Assembly: GCA_022563535.1 (NCBI GenBank)
Contig: JADFNE010000045.1
Coordinates: forward strand, 1 to 35,322
Origin: Myxococcales bacterium
Lineage (GTDB): Bacteria > Myxococcota_A > UBA9160 > UBA4427
Direction: 5' to 3'
DNA length: 35,322 nucleotides
A program made the translations under genes and the position numbers. The notes under the pieces were generated by a model, which saw nothing but the letters and a program-made list of their open reading frames with translations, did no database searches and was not told the DNA's origin. Positions 8,295-25,748 of this stretch are shown piece by piece (positions within the stretch are counted from its first letter, which is position 1; each line of letters opens with the position of its first letter).

Positions 8295-8332
8295 CACCGC
8301 ATTCACGATTCTCCGCACCGTATTCACAATCC
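8295..8332 (+). promoter_or_regulatory. Two imperfect 17-bp direct repeats upstream of the PEP-CTERM gene
   Basis: CACCGCATTCACGATTC (8295-8311) and CACCGTATTCACAATCC (8316-8332) match at 14 of 17 positions. Their starts are 21 bases apart, two turns of the helix, as for tandem regulator sites. They lie about 120-160 bases before the start codon at 8453, inside a 253-base intergenic region that otherwise shows a GAATCGATTC palindrome near 8370 and no clear promoter. Confidence 0.4.
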
Positions 8333-8452
8333 AACTTCTTGCTTGACTTTCTTACCCCCAGAGGGAAGAATCGATTCGGGGGATTCCTTCTCTTTTGGGA
8401 AAACGTGACAAGCACCGTTGGAGCTGTATCGCCTAGTTGGAGTTCGTTGTAG

Positions 8453-9847
8453 ATGCATACCCGTAGAACCAGTAGAAATCTCAAGGTATGTCACCGGGTC
8501 GCGTTCGTATTCCTTCTATTATTCACTCTGCTTGCGGCGAGCAGCCAGTCGCTTGCTGGCAACAGGATGTACGACGCCTCGTGGATTGCGGAGTCGTTCG
8601 GCAACGACAATGTAAACATCGGAACCGGCAACTCGCGGTACTTCGAGGTTTACGCAGTTCCGTGGGGCAATCAGGGTCACTCTCTTAATCCGCTCTGCGA
8701 CATCTCATCGACACCGGTCACGACGGCCGGAGTCGGTACGGCGTGGGCTCCCCGCGGTCCCGGCTGCCGGCCGCTCACGGCTGGAGAAATGCCCCGCCCC
8801 GCGAAGTATGGGACGCTCACACCCCTCGGCGGTTCATGCCCAGGCGCACCGCTCTTAGTGTGTTCTAAAACACCGCCGCTTTATCGGAACCCTCTGTTCT
8901 TCACCGCGGGTGGCGTGGCGCGTCACACCTTGATCCAAGGCTACACCACAGTCGGTGGCTCCCCGGCGACCATGTATCTGGGCCCGGGCGACCCCAACCG
9001 CGGAAGGGGCATGAAGGGTGCCCCACTTGAGGGCGGCGGAACTGCGACGACGACGACAGCCCCTGCCATCCCCGGCAAGTTCGCCTTCAACTTCCCAGCG
9101 GCCAACCCGGTGCCGGCGACGGACGGCTTTCGTCGGACGACGATAGGTTCGTTCCCAAGCGTCTTCCCGTACCTCTACAGTTACACGTACGCCAACCTGC
9201 GAAACGACGCGGGTAGTTTTGGAGCCGGTCAGGGCTTCTTCTCTACGGGTGCCGCGACCATTGGCGGAGCAGACCGAACCATGGCGACGTTCACGCTAAA
9301 GATCGGCGGAGGCCCCGTCCAAACGGCCAGAGTTACGAGGGGAGCGAACACGTTCGGCGGTGTCATGAAGCTCCTGGGAAGCTACACCAATAAGGTTTGC
9401 TACTTCTACGTGGGCGTCTGTGCGCTCGGCTACGGTACGTGGTTATACGAGCTCATCGGAGCGGCGGGCTACAAGAATGTTGTGGACAAGTATCATCCTA
9501 ACGCCAGCTCGGTCGCAACGAAGTCGTTCACCACGATCAAGACGTTCAACTACCAAAATACGGCGCTTGGGTCTGGTTACACGCGAACCCTCGTCGCGCA
9601 GCGCTGGCCGTGGACGACCGGAACCGTGACGGTCCAAGCCACCGGCCGCGGGCCGCACGATACCTTCGCACGCCGCGTGGGCTTCGATAACCGCACCGCA
9701 ATGGGCGTCGGGACAGTCCAGCTCGTGAGCCCCGTCATCACGCAATGGCTGGGGGCCACCTCCTCCTCAATGAACGAAACCGGCGGCATCGCGGTCATGC
9801 AAATCCGATTCGTTCCGGAACCCGGAGTGGCCGCAAGCCTGATCTGA
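8453..9847 (+). CDS. Secreted PEP-CTERM protein with the anchor interrupted by an in-frame TGA
   Basis: A GGAG lies 10 bases before the ATG. The long N-terminal signal (VAFVFLLLFTLLAASSQSLAG) is followed by a Gly/Thr-rich, low-charge secreted body with no recognised catalytic motif. Near the C-terminus, a PWTTGTVTVQ...GTVQLVSP block is shared with the protein at 21978-23144. The protein ends R-F-VPEPGVAASLI, then TGA at 9845-9847. Reading on in the same frame gives GLSLLMVLKRYRS and TAA at 9887-9889. Together these form a textbook PEP-CTERM signal: VPEP motif, hydrophobic helix, basic end. The stop therefore falls mid-helix. As written, the product would lack the complete sorting signal and be released, or handled differently. 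A point mutation, a sequencing error and stop readthrough are all possible. Confidence 0.82.
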   Translation: MHTRRTSRNLKVCHRVAFVFLLLFTLLAASSQSLAGNRMYDASWIAESFGNDNVNIGTGNSRYFEVYAVPWGNQGHSLNPLCDISSTPVTTAGVGTAWAPRGPGCRPLTAGEMPRPAKYGTLTPLGGSCPGAPLLVCSKTPPLYRNPLFFTAGGVARHTLIQGYTTVGGSPATMYLGPGDPNRGRGMKGAPLEGGGTATTTTAPAIPGKFAFNFPAANPVPATDGFRRTTIGSFPSVFPYLYSYTYANLRNDAGSFGAGQGFFSTGAATIGGADRTMATFTLKIGGGPVQTARVTRGANTFGGVMKLLGSYTNKVCYFYVGVCALGYGTWLYELIGAAGYKNVVDKYHPNASSVATKSFTTIKTFNYQNTALGSGYTRTLVAQRWPWTTGTVTVQATGRGPHDTFARRVGFDNRTAMGVGTVQLVSPVITQWLGATSSSMNETGGIAVMQIRFVPEPGVAASLI

Positions 9848-9944
9848 GGCCTATCGCTCCTGATGGTGCTCAAGCGCTACCGCTCCTAAGCTTGATCGCG
9901 AGCAATCCTGCTGGAAGACAACAAGAACATTTGGAGGACGCGCA

Positions 9945-10774: not shown

Positions 10775-13186
10775 CTAGTAACGAAAGCGGCTCGTAATTC
10801 CGATGATGTGAACCTCGTAGCCATCGTCGATGTGCCCGAGAAACAGATTCTGATTCAAGACGGGAGTAATTCCCTGCTGATGGAAGTCGTCAACCGTGGA
10901 GTACTGGAAGCGATAGAAGACCCGGATGCTGATCGCGTCGCTCCAGCGATAGGTCGCCGAGGAATCCACCACGTGATCCAGTTGACGCAGCGTCGGAAAA
11001 CGACCACGCACATCCGCTGCAACCACGTTGACTGGAAGCGCACCCCCCGCTGGATCGAATTGGGTATCGACAATTTCGTCAGTGCGCTGGAAACGGTAGT
11101 CAAGTCGTAGCTCGAGATTCGAATGCGGCCGGGCCGTCAGCCCCGCACCCACCGTGATCCCGACAGAATCCGAGTCCCAGGTCCAACGATTGGCCAAGGG
11201 AAAGAGCGCGCCCCCGGCAGTGAGATCGGTGAGCGGCGCCGAGGCAGAATTGATGGTCGCCATGCGTTGATTCCGCCATTCAAAGCTTGCAAAGCCGTGA
11301 GCGACGAAGCGAGGCGAAAGCTGAAAGCTCGTGTCCGCGGTGAGTTCAGCCACCCGCATGTCAGTCACGCCATAGGACGATGAAAAGTCGCGCACGTCAT
11401 AGCGCGCCACCAGAGAGAGATCGGTGCGATCGCCGAGCAGCCAATTTACGCGCAGATTGACTTCGTGGCGATCGTTGCTGGCGATATCGAATTGTCTGAA
11501 TTCCCGCAAGCTGAACTCCGGACCTGAAAAGCTGGAGACACCCGGAGCGCGCTCATAATAGCGACGATCTCGAGTGTTGTCGTAGTTGGATCCAGTTCGC
11601 CGCAAAAACGAATAGGCGACACGCAGTTGAGTATGGGGAATCAGGCCGGTCGAAACGTGGACACGCACTTGCTGATCTCGCACCTCTCGTCGGGCCCGGT
11701 TGTCGCGATGAATTGCCTTGTATTCGAGTTCGAGACCCGCTTTCGAACGCCTCGCGAAGCGCCAGTCGGCCTTGCCGCCGAGGCTGTAGCGACGCGTGTT
11801 GTAGGGAGCGGCGCCGACGCGCCTCGTCTCGTACAGGTCTTCGACCACGTAGCCGTAATTGCCATTCGACGGGTTCAACGCGAGATACTTCGTGTCGTTG
11901 TCTCGCAGAGAAAAGCGGAATTTCAGCTGGAGCGTGACCGCCCGAACCGGTTTCATTCGAAGCTTCGACTGAACCAGAAGATGGTCGATCCGGGCGTCGG
12001 CATTCGTCCGTGGGAGGACGTCGAAGAGCGTCAGGGTCGAGTTGATCGTGGCGGGCAGCAGTCTCTGGTTCTGGCGCATCCTGGTCCAGGAAACGCTCGT
12101 CGTGGAACGGCCCGAGAACGGAAGCCGGAAGCCGAAATCGCCGCTGAGCTGGTGAAGCTCATTATCCGGCGCGAGTGCGGCGCGCCCAAGCGGGGGACCG
12201 GGCGTGAGACCAAAGGCGTAGAAGGGATTCTCCCAGGTCAGAGAGGTGTTGCGATTGAGGTAAACCGAGCCGCGATAGCGGAGATTGGCCTGCACCTCCT
12301 CGGTTGCAAACTGAAGCGCCGTGGACCATTCATGGGTGTCGGACTCGACCGGAGCAATTGTCTCGGCAACGCTTCCCCTGATCTCGGAGCCAAAGGTAAT
12401 TCCCAGAGTTCCGCCGAAGGGTTTCTCTCCGTCGCGGCGACGGAGTCGATAGTCGGCAATCAGCGACAGGTCGGGCCGGATTCGCCAGCGAAACTCGACC
12501 TCATTGCGTTGCCGTGTTTGAGAGAGACGCGAGTTCCCGATCGTGTTGAAGGCCGCCTCGACCTCGGCCGCAGTATTGAGACCCGGGGCGAGGGACGACG
12601 GAAGGGTGAGCAGCTCGCTCCCCACCCCGCTGTAAAGAACCCGGGCGTCGTCCATCGCGAAATGCTCGAGAGAGTCGAACCCGCCCCGCAACCGGAACAG
12701 GCCGTGATAGCCGAACTCCACCCGATAGAACTGATCGCTGCGCCCCAGCGAGCCACCGCCGATCTCGAAGTAGCCCGCAGCATCGCGCTCGCGTGCTTCG
12801 ATCGTGAATCTTCGCAACCAAAAGCCATCGGACAGATCGGCGTACTTGCGGAAATCTGCTTCGCCGGTTTCCCCGCTGTTTCCCAAATAGCCGAGTTCGA
12901 CGAAGCCTCGCAGCAGGAACCTTTCGCCCGAATAGGGTGGAGGTTTCAAGGGATAGGGATATAGGATTCCACTGGGCGACCGGTGACGGGTGGAACGCAG
13001 CGTCGAGAGGCCGCGCTCGTCGATCTCGAGCAACGGCTCGAGACCTTCTCCGCTGAGCACACTACTTTGCTGATCGGCGCCGGCGGCTGGTTGCGCGGGA
13101 AGCACGACGACGCCAAGCGACGAGATCCAAAGCGAAGCCAACACCGCCCCAGGTAGACGCCCACGAAGCCATCGAGAGGCCCTCAT
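10775..13186 (-). CDS. MtrB/PioB/DmsF-family outer-membrane beta-barrel (decaheme-cytochrome sheath)
   Basis: The 803-residue product starts with a signal peptide (MRASRWLRG...AQPAAGA). Its body alternates short amphipathic strands with Arg- and Asp-rich loops throughout, for example FWLRRFTIEARERDAAGYFEIGGGSLGRSDQFYRVEFGYHGLFRLRGGFD near residues 100-150, and ends in an aromatic residue (ITSRFRY). In this family the barrel encloses a decaheme cytochrome and forms a conductive path across the outer membrane. The start codon overlaps the stop of the upstream decaheme gene as ATGA, so production is coupled. The length is closer to PioB (~800) than to Shewanella MtrB (~700), and no CXXC motif is present near the N-terminus. 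I identify it by architecture plus genomic coupling rather than by a signature motif. Confidence 0.85.
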   Translation of the reverse strand: MRASRWLRGRLPGAVLASLWISSLGVVVLPAQPAAGADQQSSVLSGEGLEPLLEIDERGLSTLRSTRHRSPSGILYPYPLKPPPYSGERFLLRGFVELGYLGNSGETGEADFRKYADLSDGFWLRRFTIEARERDAAGYFEIGGGSLGRSDQFYRVEFGYHGLFRLRGGFDSLEHFAMDDARVLYSGVGSELLTLPSSLAPGLNTAAEVEAAFNTIGNSRLSQTRQRNEVEFRWRIRPDLSLIADYRLRRRDGEKPFGGTLGITFGSEIRGSVAETIAPVESDTHEWSTALQFATEEVQANLRYRGSVYLNRNTSLTWENPFYAFGLTPGPPLGRAALAPDNELHQLSGDFGFRLPFSGRSTTSVSWTRMRQNQRLLPATINSTLTLFDVLPRTNADARIDHLLVQSKLRMKPVRAVTLQLKFRFSLRDNDTKYLALNPSNGNYGYVVEDLYETRRVGAAPYNTRRYSLGGKADWRFARRSKAGLELEYKAIHRDNRARREVRDQQVRVHVSTGLIPHTQLRVAYSFLRRTGSNYDNTRDRRYYERAPGVSSFSGPEFSLREFRQFDIASNDRHEVNLRVNWLLGDRTDLSLVARYDVRDFSSSYGVTDMRVAELTADTSFQLSPRFVAHGFASFEWRNQRMATINSASAPLTDLTAGGALFPLANRWTWDSDSVGITVGAGLTARPHSNLELRLDYRFQRTDEIVDTQFDPAGGALPVNVVAADVRGRFPTLRQLDHVVDSSATYRWSDAISIRVFYRFQYSTVDDFHQQGITPVLNQNLFLGHIDDGYEVHIIGITSRFRY

Positions 13187-14103
13187 CGGTGAAACCGTGC
13201 ACCCGACGGGTGGTTCGACCCGTGGATCTGGACATGACAGTTGACACAGCCTCGGCCGATGATGCGGGGATCTCGATTCAGCAACGCAGTGGGCGAAGCG
13301 AGATTTTCTCCGGTGAGCAGCTCGATTGGATGGTTCGCAAGACCGATCTGGGCATGACACTGCTGACACAGAAAGGGTGGCGAAGTCACGAGCAGGCTAT
13401 CGCGATTCGAACCGTGAGGGAGGTGGCAGCTCACACAGCCTTCGGTCACCGGAGCGTGTTCCCAGATGAATGGGCCGCGTTTGGCTGTGTGGCAATTCGT
13501 ACAGAGTTCGAACGTCGAGTTGGCGCGCAGCAGCGGATCCGTTGCAGACCCGTGTGGCTGATGGCAATCGTCGCAGTCGATCTTGCCCTCGAACAGAGGC
13601 ATGTGGGAACGCTTGCGAAATTCGACACGTTGAGCCGGATGGCAGCTGAAACAGGTCCGCTTGACACTCGCTTCCCGCAGCAGATCGGTCGTAGAGATAT
13701 TGCTCATCGGATTGTGGCAATCACTGCAGGCAAGATTCTCGGACTCGTGGACCGAGCCCGCCCAGTGGATTCGCGGTCCTCCCGCATGACATTGCAGGCA
13801 TACCCCGTTCAGCTCGCGCGACGGTCGACCACCCTCGCGCGTGAAAGCCACGATCTTGGAGCGGTCGCTGGTATCTTTGAGATGCTCACTGCCGGGACCG
13901 TGACAGGCCTCGCAACCGCGCCGTTCGAGAGCGGTCCTCGGATTCCGCAGAAAGACATCGGCGTGAATGGTGTCGGCCCAATGCTCGGACTCGACCTGGT
14001 GGCATGACTCGCAAGCGGCGCGACCGAGATATTCGGGCTCCTGGGCGTGGGCCAAGCCGGTGCAAATAACGAGGAACAGAATCGAGACCAGGACACGCAA
14101 CAT
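13183..14103 (-). CDS. DmsE/MtrA/PioA-like periplasmic decaheme c-type cytochrome
   Basis: From the ATG at 14103 the product is 306 residues with a signal peptide cleaved after AHA. A GTG at 14151 would add 16 residues before the signal and is unlikely. Ten CXXCH sites are visible at residues 31, 64, 102, 126, 151, 177, 201, 223, 246 and 286, in two groups of five with similar spacing, as in MtrA and DmsE. Further His residues (HWADTIH, RSHMPL, EHAPV, HPSG) can serve as distal ligands. The protein would take electrons in the periplasm and pass them through the barrel encoded next. In Shewanella, dmsE-dmsF precede the DMSO reductase genes; here no terminal reductase, surface cytochrome or quinol dehydrogenase is adjacent. 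Whether electrons flow outward or inward cannot be told. Confidence 0.93.
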   Translation of the reverse strand: MLRVLVSILFLVICTGLAHAQEPEYLGRAACESCHQVESEHWADTIHADVFLRNPRTALERRGCEACHGPGSEHLKDTSDRSKIVAFTREGGRPSRELNGVCLQCHAGGPRIHWAGSVHESENLACSDCHNPMSNISTTDLLREASVKRTCFSCHPAQRVEFRKRSHMPLFEGKIDCDDCHQPHGSATDPLLRANSTFELCTNCHTAKRGPFIWEHAPVTEGCVSCHLPHGSNRDSLLVTSPPFLCQQCHAQIGLANHPIELLTGENLASPTALLNRDPRIIGRGCVNCHVQIHGSNHPSGARFHR

Positions 14104-14177
14104 TGAGTTGGCTCTTCGAGAATCAAGTGGACCTGTATTGAACGATGACACGCCGCACGCTCGCCTTGAACTTCCAA

Positions 14178-21977: not shown

Positions 21978-23144
21978 TCAGGCTGCAGTTCTGGCACCCT
22001 GGCGGCGGTACAGCAGGTAGCCCATCAGGGTCGCTGCCATGGCGATGCCGATCGGGCCCATGGCCGAACCGGATCCAACCGGAAGGAGAATCAACCGAAC
22101 CCAGCCGCGGTTGGCGTTCTGACCGGTGAACGACCGTATGCTAAGTGCGCCCGAGACCATCTGGATGGTTCGTTGACCACCCCCGGTGAACGTGTTCCCA
22201 CCGGTAAGGGTGAAGGTCTCCGGTCCGCCAAGGGCGCCCGGAGCTTTGATGATGATCTTGCCCGTGGTCCACGGGAAGCCCTTGCTAGTTGCCGCGTTGA
22301 GGGGAGCGGCATTGAAGCCACCCTCCGGCGTCAGAGCCGGTCCAAAGTTGAAGACAGCCGGGGTGCCTGCAGCATTCAATAGGGCAGGGCCCGCTCCGGG
22401 AATCAAGGCGCCTATTGCTACTGCCGCGGGCGTTCCACCGGGGGTCAGCACGCTGGCTAGGGTAGCCGCGCGGCCGGGGCCCCCGACACCGGTCGGCAGC
22501 GCGTACAGGATCGCCGCTACACAACCTGCGGACGGGAAAGGCGCCGTCATTCCCGGATCATAAACCGTGTGGGTACACGGCGGGGGAACGCCAACGGCCG
22601 CGTAGATCGTCACTGCGGCGAGCGGAGATAGGCCGCTCGTGACCGCGTTGGGGCTCAGCGCGAACTGCGCGGGGCCACCGAACTTGCTGTTGAGCGAGTT
22701 CGAGTAAGTGATGCTCTGGCTCGTAAGAGCAGTGAACGTTGTCGTCGTGGCGCCGGTACGGGCACCCGTCGAGAATACGGCCGCCGCCGTGGGCCAGGTG
22801 TAGTTGAGGTTCGTCCCCACAGCATAAACTGCGGGGTTCGAAGCAAACACGCCGACCGTTTGCTGGGTAGCCACCCTCTTCATGGCAGCAGCCGGCACGG
22901 TGACTTTCTGCTGAAAGGCCATCGCAGTGGTTCCCACGACATTGACGGGTTGTGCCGTAATCAGCAGCGGGGGAAAAGCGGCACCAGTCTGCGCAACGGC
23001 AGCTTGAATCGGTAGAGCCAGCCCTTGGCCGACGTGGAGCTGAGCACCACCACCGATCAGTGAATAGTTTCTCGCTTGAGCGCTCCCGGCACACAAAATA
23101 CCGAGCATCATCGCAGCAAACGCCACACGCTTGAGCATTAACAT
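21978..23144 (-). CDS. Secreted protein with a variant exosortase-type C-terminal tail
   Basis: The 388-residue protein follows an excellent AAGGAG seven bases before the ATG. It has a cleaved signal ending AQA, then a Gly/Ala/Thr/Pro-rich body with very few charges. The last ~115 residues (FPWTTGKIIIK...ETFTLTGGNTFTGGGQRTIQMVSG) are homologous to the same region of the PEP-CTERM protein at 8453. The C-terminus is tripartite: LPVGSGSAMGP, a hydrophobic helix (IGIAMAATLMGYLLY) and basic RRQGAR. The canonical PEP is thus replaced by a Gly/Ser motif, as in the non-PEP sorting signals known for other exosortase or rhombosortase classes. A near-consensus sigma-54 promoter precedes it and hairpins follow it. 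Function is unknown; surface or matrix placement is inferred. Confidence 0.8.
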   Translation of the reverse strand: MLMLKRVAFAAMMLGILCAGSAQARNYSLIGGGAQLHVGQGLALPIQAAVAQTGAAFPPLLITAQPVNVVGTTAMAFQQKVTVPAAAMKRVATQQTVGVFASNPAVYAVGTNLNYTWPTAAAVFSTGARTGATTTTFTALTSQSITYSNSLNSKFGGPAQFALSPNAVTSGLSPLAAVTIYAAVGVPPPCTHTVYDPGMTAPFPSAGCVAAILYALPTGVGGPGRAATLASVLTPGGTPAAVAIGALIPGAGPALLNAAGTPAVFNFGPALTPEGGFNAAPLNAATSKGFPWTTGKIIIKAPGALGGPETFTLTGGNTFTGGGQRTIQMVSGALSIRSFTGQNANRGWVRLILLPVGSGSAMGPIGIAMAATLMGYLLYRRQGARTAA

Positions 23145-23411: not shown

Positions 23412-25748
23412 TCAGGCTTCGGGTTCTTCGACCGGTCGAGAATCGGATTTCGCGGCCGCGGACTCGCGGAGCACTTCGGCGCGGCGGCTGGCCTCGGCGG
23501 CCTCCTCCGTGTTGCCCCGTTTGGCGTAGACCTGGCTCAGCAGCCCGTGCGCATCCGCGCCGCCGCCAAAGCGCACGGCGCGCTTCGCCCGCTCCAGGGT
23601 ACGAGGGGTATCCACACCCTGCTGTAGGTCCAGGCGGACCTGAGTCATCGCTGCGTCAATCTCGAAGGGATGTTCCCCGAGCAGACGATCGAGTCGCTCG
23701 CGGGCCCCGTCCAACTCGCCCATGTCGATGAGCACGCGGACGGCCGCCATCGCGTGATCGGGATTGGACGAATCGATCGCGGCGGCTCGGTCGAAGTAGG
23801 CCAGCGCCTGCTCGGGATTGTCGGCCGCCTCGAGGCGTCCGAGGCCACTCAGCGCGTAGGCGTTTCTGGGCCCCAATTCCAGGGCTCGCAGATAAACTGC
23901 AAGTGTGGATTCCCTGGGCGCACCCGACATTTCGAGATCGAGTGCACGGATGTCCTCGAAGCTGCTGAACTCTGGTTGGCTGTCGAGTACCTTTTGGAGT
24001 CGGCTCGAAAAATCGCCTGGCGATCCGGCCGCGTGGGAGTAACGAACCAAATTGCGCAGGGCAGGAACAAATCGGGGATCCCCGTAGTCGACGCCCGGCG
24101 CGCGCGCCAGCATGCTGGCCGCCGCGGCGGGTCCGGCCCTCTCTTCTAGACCCTCGGCCGCGCGCGCCAGGCCCAAACCCGCCCAGGCTGGGTAACTTGC
24201 CTCGATATTCTCGAGTGTCTCGGCGATACCGGCCATATTGCCGCCCCTGCCTGAGAGGTACACCGAGAGGAGCATCGCATCGATATCGAGCGGCGCCTGT
24301 TCCACGCCGACGTAGAGCATCTGAATGGCTGCAGCCAGCCCGCCTCCTGCCAGCAAGAGCCTTGCTCCACGCGCGCGCGCGTCCGTCGCCCCGGGTGAGA
24401 TTCGTACCGCATAGCGATAGTCCTCGAGGGCCCGCTCAAACTCTCCGACGTCCTCGGCCGCCCGCGCCGAGTAGTAACGGGCCCAGGTATTGTCGGGCCA
24501 GAGCTTCAGGGCTTCGCTGAACTCGCTGAGCGCGAGCCGGGCGTTGCCTCTCTCCTGGGCGACGCGCGCGCGAATGAGTCGCCGATGCGCTTCGACCGGA
24601 AGATCCTCCGCAACCTCGAGGGCGCGCTCGAGGCGATTGGCCAGGATCAGCGCGTCAGCACGTTCGAAGAGCAGTTCGGGGTAGGCCGCGTCCTGTTCGA
24701 GCGCGAGTTCGACCGCCCGCTCGAGCGCGTCCGCGGCGGCCTCATGCTCGCCCATACTCTTGCGTAGCTTGGCCAGATCGGACCAGGCGATAGCCACGAG
24801 TTCCACCGGCTCGGTTTGTGTCGCCTCGGTCAGCAGCGCTTCGGCCTCGGCCGCCTTCCCCGACAGGCGCAGACGATCGGCGAGCAAGTTTCGATACTCG
24901 CGAGAGTTCGGTTGATCAGCCAGCGCCGCGCGGACGATCGAGAGTGACCGTTCGTGTTCCCCCTGCCCGTCATAGAAGACGAGCGCGTTGGTCAAGACCT
25001 CCGCATCAGTGGGATAGCTCTCGAGGCAGCGCTCCCACGTCTTTCGCGTTTTGTCCAGATCCCCAGCGTGTTCTTCGAAGGCCGCGGTCGTCGAGCAGTG
25101 CCAGGCGAGAACGCGCACTGTACCCTTGAGCTCTTTCAGCATCTCGCCCGCTGCGGCGAGATCGGCGCTGGCTTCCTCGAAACGTCCCAGATCCAGTAGC
25201 GCCAGAATCCGAGGTTCGTAGGCCTCGATCGCATTCGGATCAATTTCTAGCAGTCGATTCGCGGTTTCGAGGGCCTTTGCGGGATCCTTCTTCCAGTACG
25301 CATACGCATTCGCACGCACCAGGAGCGCACGCTTGTTGTCGGGTTCAATTTCGAGAATGCGATCGGTCAGCGCCACCACTTCGTTGAAGTCCCGACTCGC
25401 CAGGGCGAAATGGGCGAGCTGTTGTCCCGCCAGGATCAACCAGTCGGGATGTTTCATCGCCTTGCGCAACGACCAACTCGCGATGTGTTGCTGCCTCGTC
25501 AGCATCAGCGCCCTGCCGTATAGAAAATTGGCTTCTGGATCATCCGGTCGGGTCTTGAGCAGGGCCCGGAGCGGCTGGATGGACCCCGCATGATCCCCCG
25601 CCAACTGTTGCGCACGGATTGCCGTCAGCGAGTCTTCCGCACGGTCTTCACCGCATCCCGCCAGGATACAGAGGCCGAACAACAAGCAGAGGATTTGAGA
25701 AAGGAGGCGGACAGCGGACGGCTGAATGGGGGGTCTATCACGATGCAT
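23412..25748 (-). CDS. Large TPR-repeat lipoprotein, PrsT-like
   Basis: The 778-residue protein has a signal peptide with lipobox L-A-G-C32, and the rest is TPR-type helical repeats. Examples are AGSIQPLRALLKTRPDDPEANFLYGRALM, FNEVVALTDRILEIEPDNKRALLVRANAYAYWK, FERALEDYRYAVRISPGATDARARGARLLL and PEQALAYFDRAAAIDSSNPDHAMAAVRVL. Size, lipobox and repeat load match PrsT, the TPR lipoprotein of PEP-CTERM/exosortase loci, and an exosortase-type substrate is encoded next to it. I see no diagnostic residue that proves PrsT over a generic TPR lipoprotein. It is divergent from the sulfatase-fold gene with only 42 bases between starts, so they share a control region. Confidence 0.75.
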   Translation of the reverse strand: MHRDRPPIQPSAVRLLSQILCLLFGLCILAGCGEDRAEDSLTAIRAQQLAGDHAGSIQPLRALLKTRPDDPEANFLYGRALMLTRQQHIASWSLRKAMKHPDWLILAGQQLAHFALASRDFNEVVALTDRILEIEPDNKRALLVRANAYAYWKKDPAKALETANRLLEIDPNAIEAYEPRILALLDLGRFEEASADLAAAGEMLKELKGTVRVLAWHCSTTAAFEEHAGDLDKTRKTWERCLESYPTDAEVLTNALVFYDGQGEHERSLSIVRAALADQPNSREYRNLLADRLRLSGKAAEAEALLTEATQTEPVELVAIAWSDLAKLRKSMGEHEAAADALERAVELALEQDAAYPELLFERADALILANRLERALEVAEDLPVEAHRRLIRARVAQERGNARLALSEFSEALKLWPDNTWARYYSARAAEDVGEFERALEDYRYAVRISPGATDARARGARLLLAGGGLAAAIQMLYVGVEQAPLDIDAMLLSVYLSGRGGNMAGIAETLENIEASYPAWAGLGLARAAEGLEERAGPAAAASMLARAPGVDYGDPRFVPALRNLVRYSHAAGSPGDFSSRLQKVLDSQPEFSSFEDIRALDLEMSGAPRESTLAVYLRALELGPRNAYALSGLGRLEAADNPEQALAYFDRAAAIDSSNPDHAMAAVRVLIDMGELDGARERLDRLLGEHPFEIDAAMTQVRLDLQQGVDTPRTLERAKRAVRFGGGADAHGLLSQVYAKRGNTEEAAEASRRAEVLRESAAAKSDSRPVEEPEA

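Follow-up and report, generated by a model that had tools for sequence, protein, structure and literature searches.

What becomes of a secreted protein when a stop codon interrupts the membrane helix in the sorting signal at its C-terminus? The question is raised by a gene in the stretch of Myxococcales DNA analyzed here (the window, 35,322 nucleotides in all), where a long ORF meets an in-frame TGA and the same frame then runs on through what looks like the remainder of the signal. The initial annotation of the locus had offered three options: loss of the anchor through one point mutation, read-through of the stop, or an erroneous base call. The first of these is now the best supported, and a probability of roughly 0.7 can be given to a nonsense mutation in a redundant PEP-CTERM paralogue, deleting its anchor and exosortase signal.

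A truncated ORF and its interrupted sorting signal

Direct reading of the sequence reproduced the ORF start, the in-frame TGA, the in-frame tail and the downstream TAA just as they were first described (Table 1). The residues before the TGA are ...FVPEPGVAASLI (a longer reading of the C-terminal end is ...MQIRFVPEPGVAASLI), and the frame continues past it as GLSLLMVLKRYRS. The PEP motif lies near the C-terminus of the protein, and its three residues (P455-E456-P457) are invariant in 14 homologues. The TGA follows directly after GVAASLI, and the translated product is left without most of the hydrophobic transmembrane helix and without the basic cluster KRYRS, which lies beyond the stop. The rest of the helix is present in the DNA past the stop, and the two paralogues described below have it uninterrupted. 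The proposal that the two halves make up one PEP-CTERM signal was borne out: read through the TGA, the region scored 16.4 bits against TIGR02595 in a scan of its own genome (cut-off, 16 bits), and the paralogues carry the uninterrupted form. Among the 36 TIGR02595 matches of that genome, the window copy was the only one flagged for an internal stop, and no such stop occurred in 148 matches across four related genomes.

At its other end, the protein has a charged N-terminus followed by a hydrophobic core, recognizable by eye as a signal peptide (MHTRRTSRNLKVCHRVAFVFLLLFTLLAASSQSLAG), and a structure model of low overall confidence predicts a helix at residues 6–35. No Pfam domain was found in the body of the protein, and the model of the body (mean pLDDT 43.8) was too poor for a fold search.

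Table 1. Coordinates of the interrupted gene, its sorting signal and the duplicated unit within the window
Feature	Position	Strand	Basis
Duplicated unit (gene, ~120 bp upstream and ~16 bp downstream)	8332..9905	+	blastn of flanks; boundaries identical in every comparison
Truncated ORF (ATG start), 464 aa, secreted PEP-CTERM family protein, function unassigned	8453..9847	+	Sequence, Pfam scan, homologue search
N-terminal signal peptide, MHTRRTSRNLKVCHRVAFVFLLLFTLLAASSQSLAG	8453..8560	+	Sequence; low-confidence helix 6–35
PEP motif	9815..9823	+	Sequence; invariance in 14 homologues
In-frame TGA, aligned with TGC (Cys) in the two paralogues of the genome and mostly with GCN (Ala) in homologues further away	9845..9847	+	Alignment
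Untranslated rest of sorting signal, GLSLLMVLKRYRS (remaining helix and basic tail)	9848..9886	+	Sequence, alignment
Original frame end, TAA (TGA in both paralogues)	9887..9889	+	Sequence comparison

A sorting system for such proteins is present in the genome, since five exosortase-family (PF09721) matches above the cut-off occur there together with about 36 PEP-CTERM matches. In the accepted model, the PEP-CTERM helix and basic tail anchor a protein in the inner membrane until the exosortase cuts them off and hands the protein on (PMC1569441, PMC12188702), and deletion of the exosortase in Nostoc lowered the amount of PEP-CTERM proteins that reached the medium (PMC12188702). The window gene resembles known PEP-CTERM (TIGR02595/PF07589) and exosortase (PF09721) systems in the PEP motif, helix and basic tail of its DNA and in its N-terminal signal peptide, as does its genome in encoding exosortases and dozens of further PEP-CTERM proteins. 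Unlike other PEP-CTERM proteins, however, its helix is cut by the TGA after the first residues, and the remainder stays untranslated along with the basic tail. Literature on PEP-CTERM and stop codons, represented mainly by titles and abstracts, gave no apparent instance of an interrupted signal.

Paralogues and the origin of the stop codon

The genome holding the window (4.63 Mb in 147 contigs, 97.9% complete) contains two close paralogues of the gene, on contigs C58 and C104. The C58 copy is intact, has 71% amino acid identity to the window copy and ends VPEPGVFASLI-C-GIALLMVLKRYHA, while the C104 copy is 88% identical over the first 304 residues and ends IPEPGVAASLI-C-GMTLLMVLKRYRA. The codon aligned with the window TGA is TGC (Cys) in both. 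This replaces the GGA, CGA or TGG expected in the initial annotation, and since TGC is shared by the two paralogues, the event is a single C>A transversion that converted Cys to a stop. Relative to its intact homologue on C58, the window copy carries a disabling lesion. Between the window and the paralogues, 9–10 of the 13 tail residues are identical, and DNA similarity runs on to about position 9905; the tail beyond the TGA is homologous. A chance tail was ruled out by the occurrence of the same uninterrupted tail in the two in-genome paralogues. The terminal stop itself is TAA in the window copy versus TGA in the other two.

By blastn, a block of about 1.57 kb is common to all three copies; it includes the upstream region and has equal boundaries in each, but the neighboring genes differ. 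Nucleotide identity to the window unit is 76% for C58 and 86% for C104. On this comparison, the copies are dispersed duplicates that kept their upstream region; identical boundaries with unrelated flanks look as if the gene and its upstream sequence had moved as a cassette. The C104 copy is also disrupted, by a +2 insertion (a 2-base slippage) in an AGAGAG run at about 2052–2080 of the minus strand (locus L007). Lesions are therefore found in two of the three copies (window and C104), and one (C58) is intact. The frameshift in C104 could be a sign that the small family is decaying in its own genome, or it could be an indel error in the contig.

Constraint and the age of the lesion

The window and C104 copies are separated by a dS of about 0.23–0.27, with dN/dS at 0.27 for the first 304 codons and at 0.68 for the 158 that follow, and the counts of synonymous and non-synonymous changes are similar on the two branches. 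By these values, the body was under constraint during most of the period after duplication, and with branch counts so alike, the lesion is probably recent. On the window branch, changes number 4/42 in the 13-codon tail versus 32/474 in the adjacent body (Fisher p = 0.52), and in simulation, with 0.05 substitutions per site, a neutral tail was still open in 97% of cases. As evidence for read-through, the open tail was accordingly set aside as lacking power, because an open and recognizable tail is what neutrality would leave at modest divergence.

Just six single-base changes create a stop in the C104 signal, and in the helix only the Cys codon can become one in this way. A single-base stop in the helix of such a copy therefore had to hit Cys.

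Homologues in related genomes

Of 192 genomes searched in all, 16 related ones contain homologues of the window protein, not counting the genome to which it belongs. A contig scan with a single protein query gave no match, and one with an alignment query gave 21 relatives, all of them Myxococcota, Myxococcales or Deltaproteobacteria MAGs, and each too distant to belong to the same species. Alignment of the homologues across the interrupted codon, with one spurious frame omitted, gave 30 distinct tails, of which 25 have Ala at this site and two, the in-genome paralogues, have Cys. A TGA at this codon occurs in the window sequence alone and in no homologue.

The window also holds a more distant relative of the family, a single-copy protein of 388 aa encoded at 21978–23144 on the minus strand, which shares with it the PWTTG...TIQMVS region (hhalign E 8.6e-6, probability 83%). 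Its C-terminus consists of LPVGSGS, a hydrophobic helix and YRRQGARTAA, has no PEP motif and is possibly a different C-terminal sorting signal. The adjoining gene (23412–25748, minus strand) encodes a TPR lipoprotein resembling PrsT of the XrtA/PEP-CTERM system, with a score of 149.5 bits that falls under the 312.2 cut-off. Elsewhere (10775–14151, minus strand), an MtrB/PioB-type outer-membrane porin lies beside a multihaem cytochrome whose CXXCH motifs are paired, and the two genes are likely an extracellular electron transfer conduit.

Alternative explanations for the TGA

The main rival to a nonsense mutation is an error in the consensus or the base call, in which case the true codon would be TGC and the signal an ordinary, complete one. 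Such an error is possible in a draft of 147 contigs, and it would fit the single substitution between TGA and the TGC of both paralogues, the intact remainder of the gene, and the rarity of interrupted signals in this genome and its relatives. The lesion in C104 makes assembly trouble across similar copies conceivable as well. However, the window and C104 copies differ at about 11–16% of bases, which makes mis-mapping unlikely, and neither paralogue has an A at the codon position, such that mixing between copies would not yield TGA. Consensus substitution errors are also rare, and this explanation is judged improbable, though it is the likeliest after the preferred one. Low-level or regulated read-through of the stop, which would yield mostly soluble protein and an anchored, sorted minority, is less probable again. 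UGA is the leakiest of the stops, the tail remains in frame with its helix and basic residues, and the last stop of the window copy has switched from TGA to TAA. An open and well-kept tail does weigh against a nonsense mutation, but only weakly given its little power, and for read-through the tail shows no extra constraint, its intactness being expected neutrally at the lesion's age. Nor is the TGA conserved in any homologue, and structure 3′ of it is unremarkable in an unconstrained fold (z = −0.8 to −1.3). Of the two options that the initial annotation set beside point mutation, then, both retain some probability and nothing specific favors either. Reassignment of TGA to Trp or Gly in an alternative code was rejected, as TGA serves as the stop of ordinary genes here, both paralogues among them.

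A selenocysteine replacing the Cys of the sorting-signal helix needed testing, since the genome encodes the full machinery: tRNA-Sec, SelA and SelB, together with a SelD whose gene itself contains an in-frame TGA. The loci are L097 (contig C15:56143-57069), L066 (C65), L088 (C31) and L121 (C11); SelD is a predicted selenoprotein with a good SECIS, and SelB adjoins a seryl-tRNA synthetase. From these genes, the genome decodes UGA as selenocysteine somewhere, and at the window TGA, alignment with Cys in both paralogues is the pattern that a selenoprotein would show. In the bacterial model, the SECIS lies 16–37 nt 3′ of the UGA and has a 4–16 bp stem with a G in the first two loop positions (PMC13188914). 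The best hairpin after 9845 reaches −6.1 kcal/mol with 4 bp before a mismatch, and of the 963 TGA triplets that the window contains, about 20% do no worse, whereas SelD of the same genome, used as the control, forms an 8-bp hairpin closed by a GGU loop, 27 nt from its UGA, at −11.0 kcal/mol. An Rfam search around the window TGA returned sub-threshold noise and no SECIS match, and a search for formate dehydrogenase as a second control turned up no in-frame TGA. Selenoproteins recognized by TGA/Cys pairing (PMC1088965, PMC13188914) resemble the window gene in having an in-frame TGA opposite Cys and the machinery in the genome, but the window TGA differs in lacking a SECIS, a conserved Cys and a redox site. 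The published rule asks that TGA/Cys pairs make up over 50% and that at least two sequences carry TGA (PMC1088965); here, Ala predominates and a single sequence carries TGA. Moreover, the residue would sit in the part thought to be removed by the exosortase, and as no helix codon other than Cys can become a stop by a single base change, a TGA opposite Cys is expected without any selenocysteine. This explanation is thus barely credible. It is also very unlikely, if a little less so, that the stop is a functional switch, where limited UGA read-through (or, less likely, selenocysteine without a typical SECIS) would yield a mostly soluble product and a minor exosortase-sorted form.

Consequences of a probable nonsense mutation

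If the base is real in the organism and the gene is expressed, a nonsense mutation that turned a Cys codon (TGC) of the sorting-signal helix into TGA, in one paralogue of the dispersed three, would give a protein made with an intact signal peptide and ending after VPEPGVAASLI. Lacking the basic tail and the greater part of the helix, such a product would not be held in the inner membrane for the exosortase. It should cross that membrane by means of its signal peptide and remain soluble in the periplasm, unsorted, or be degraded. The initial annotation had suggested that a surface protein becomes a soluble one that is released; solubility is upheld, but release to the medium seems less likely than periplasmic retention, since the tail is what holds the protein for the exosortase and loss of the exosortase lowers extracellular PEP-CTERM proteins in Nostoc. 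The lesion would be tolerated because the family is redundant, with C58 intact and C104 already frameshifted.

The window gene is comparable to recent nonsense pseudogenes of redundant paralogues in its single-base loss near the 3′ end, its intact paralogue and the frameshift of a second copy. Unlike such pseudogenes, only its last 14 residues are removed, and the secreted body could still be made. The lesion is most likely an ordinary one and not a new way of decoding. It also serves as a cautionary case, in which a TGA opposite Cys and a full selenocysteine machinery mimic a selenoprotein until paralogue, SECIS and codon-neighbor checks remove that reading. Together, the window copy and its paralogue amount to a natural truncation, a set of similar proteins with and without the exosortase anchor whose destinations could be compared.
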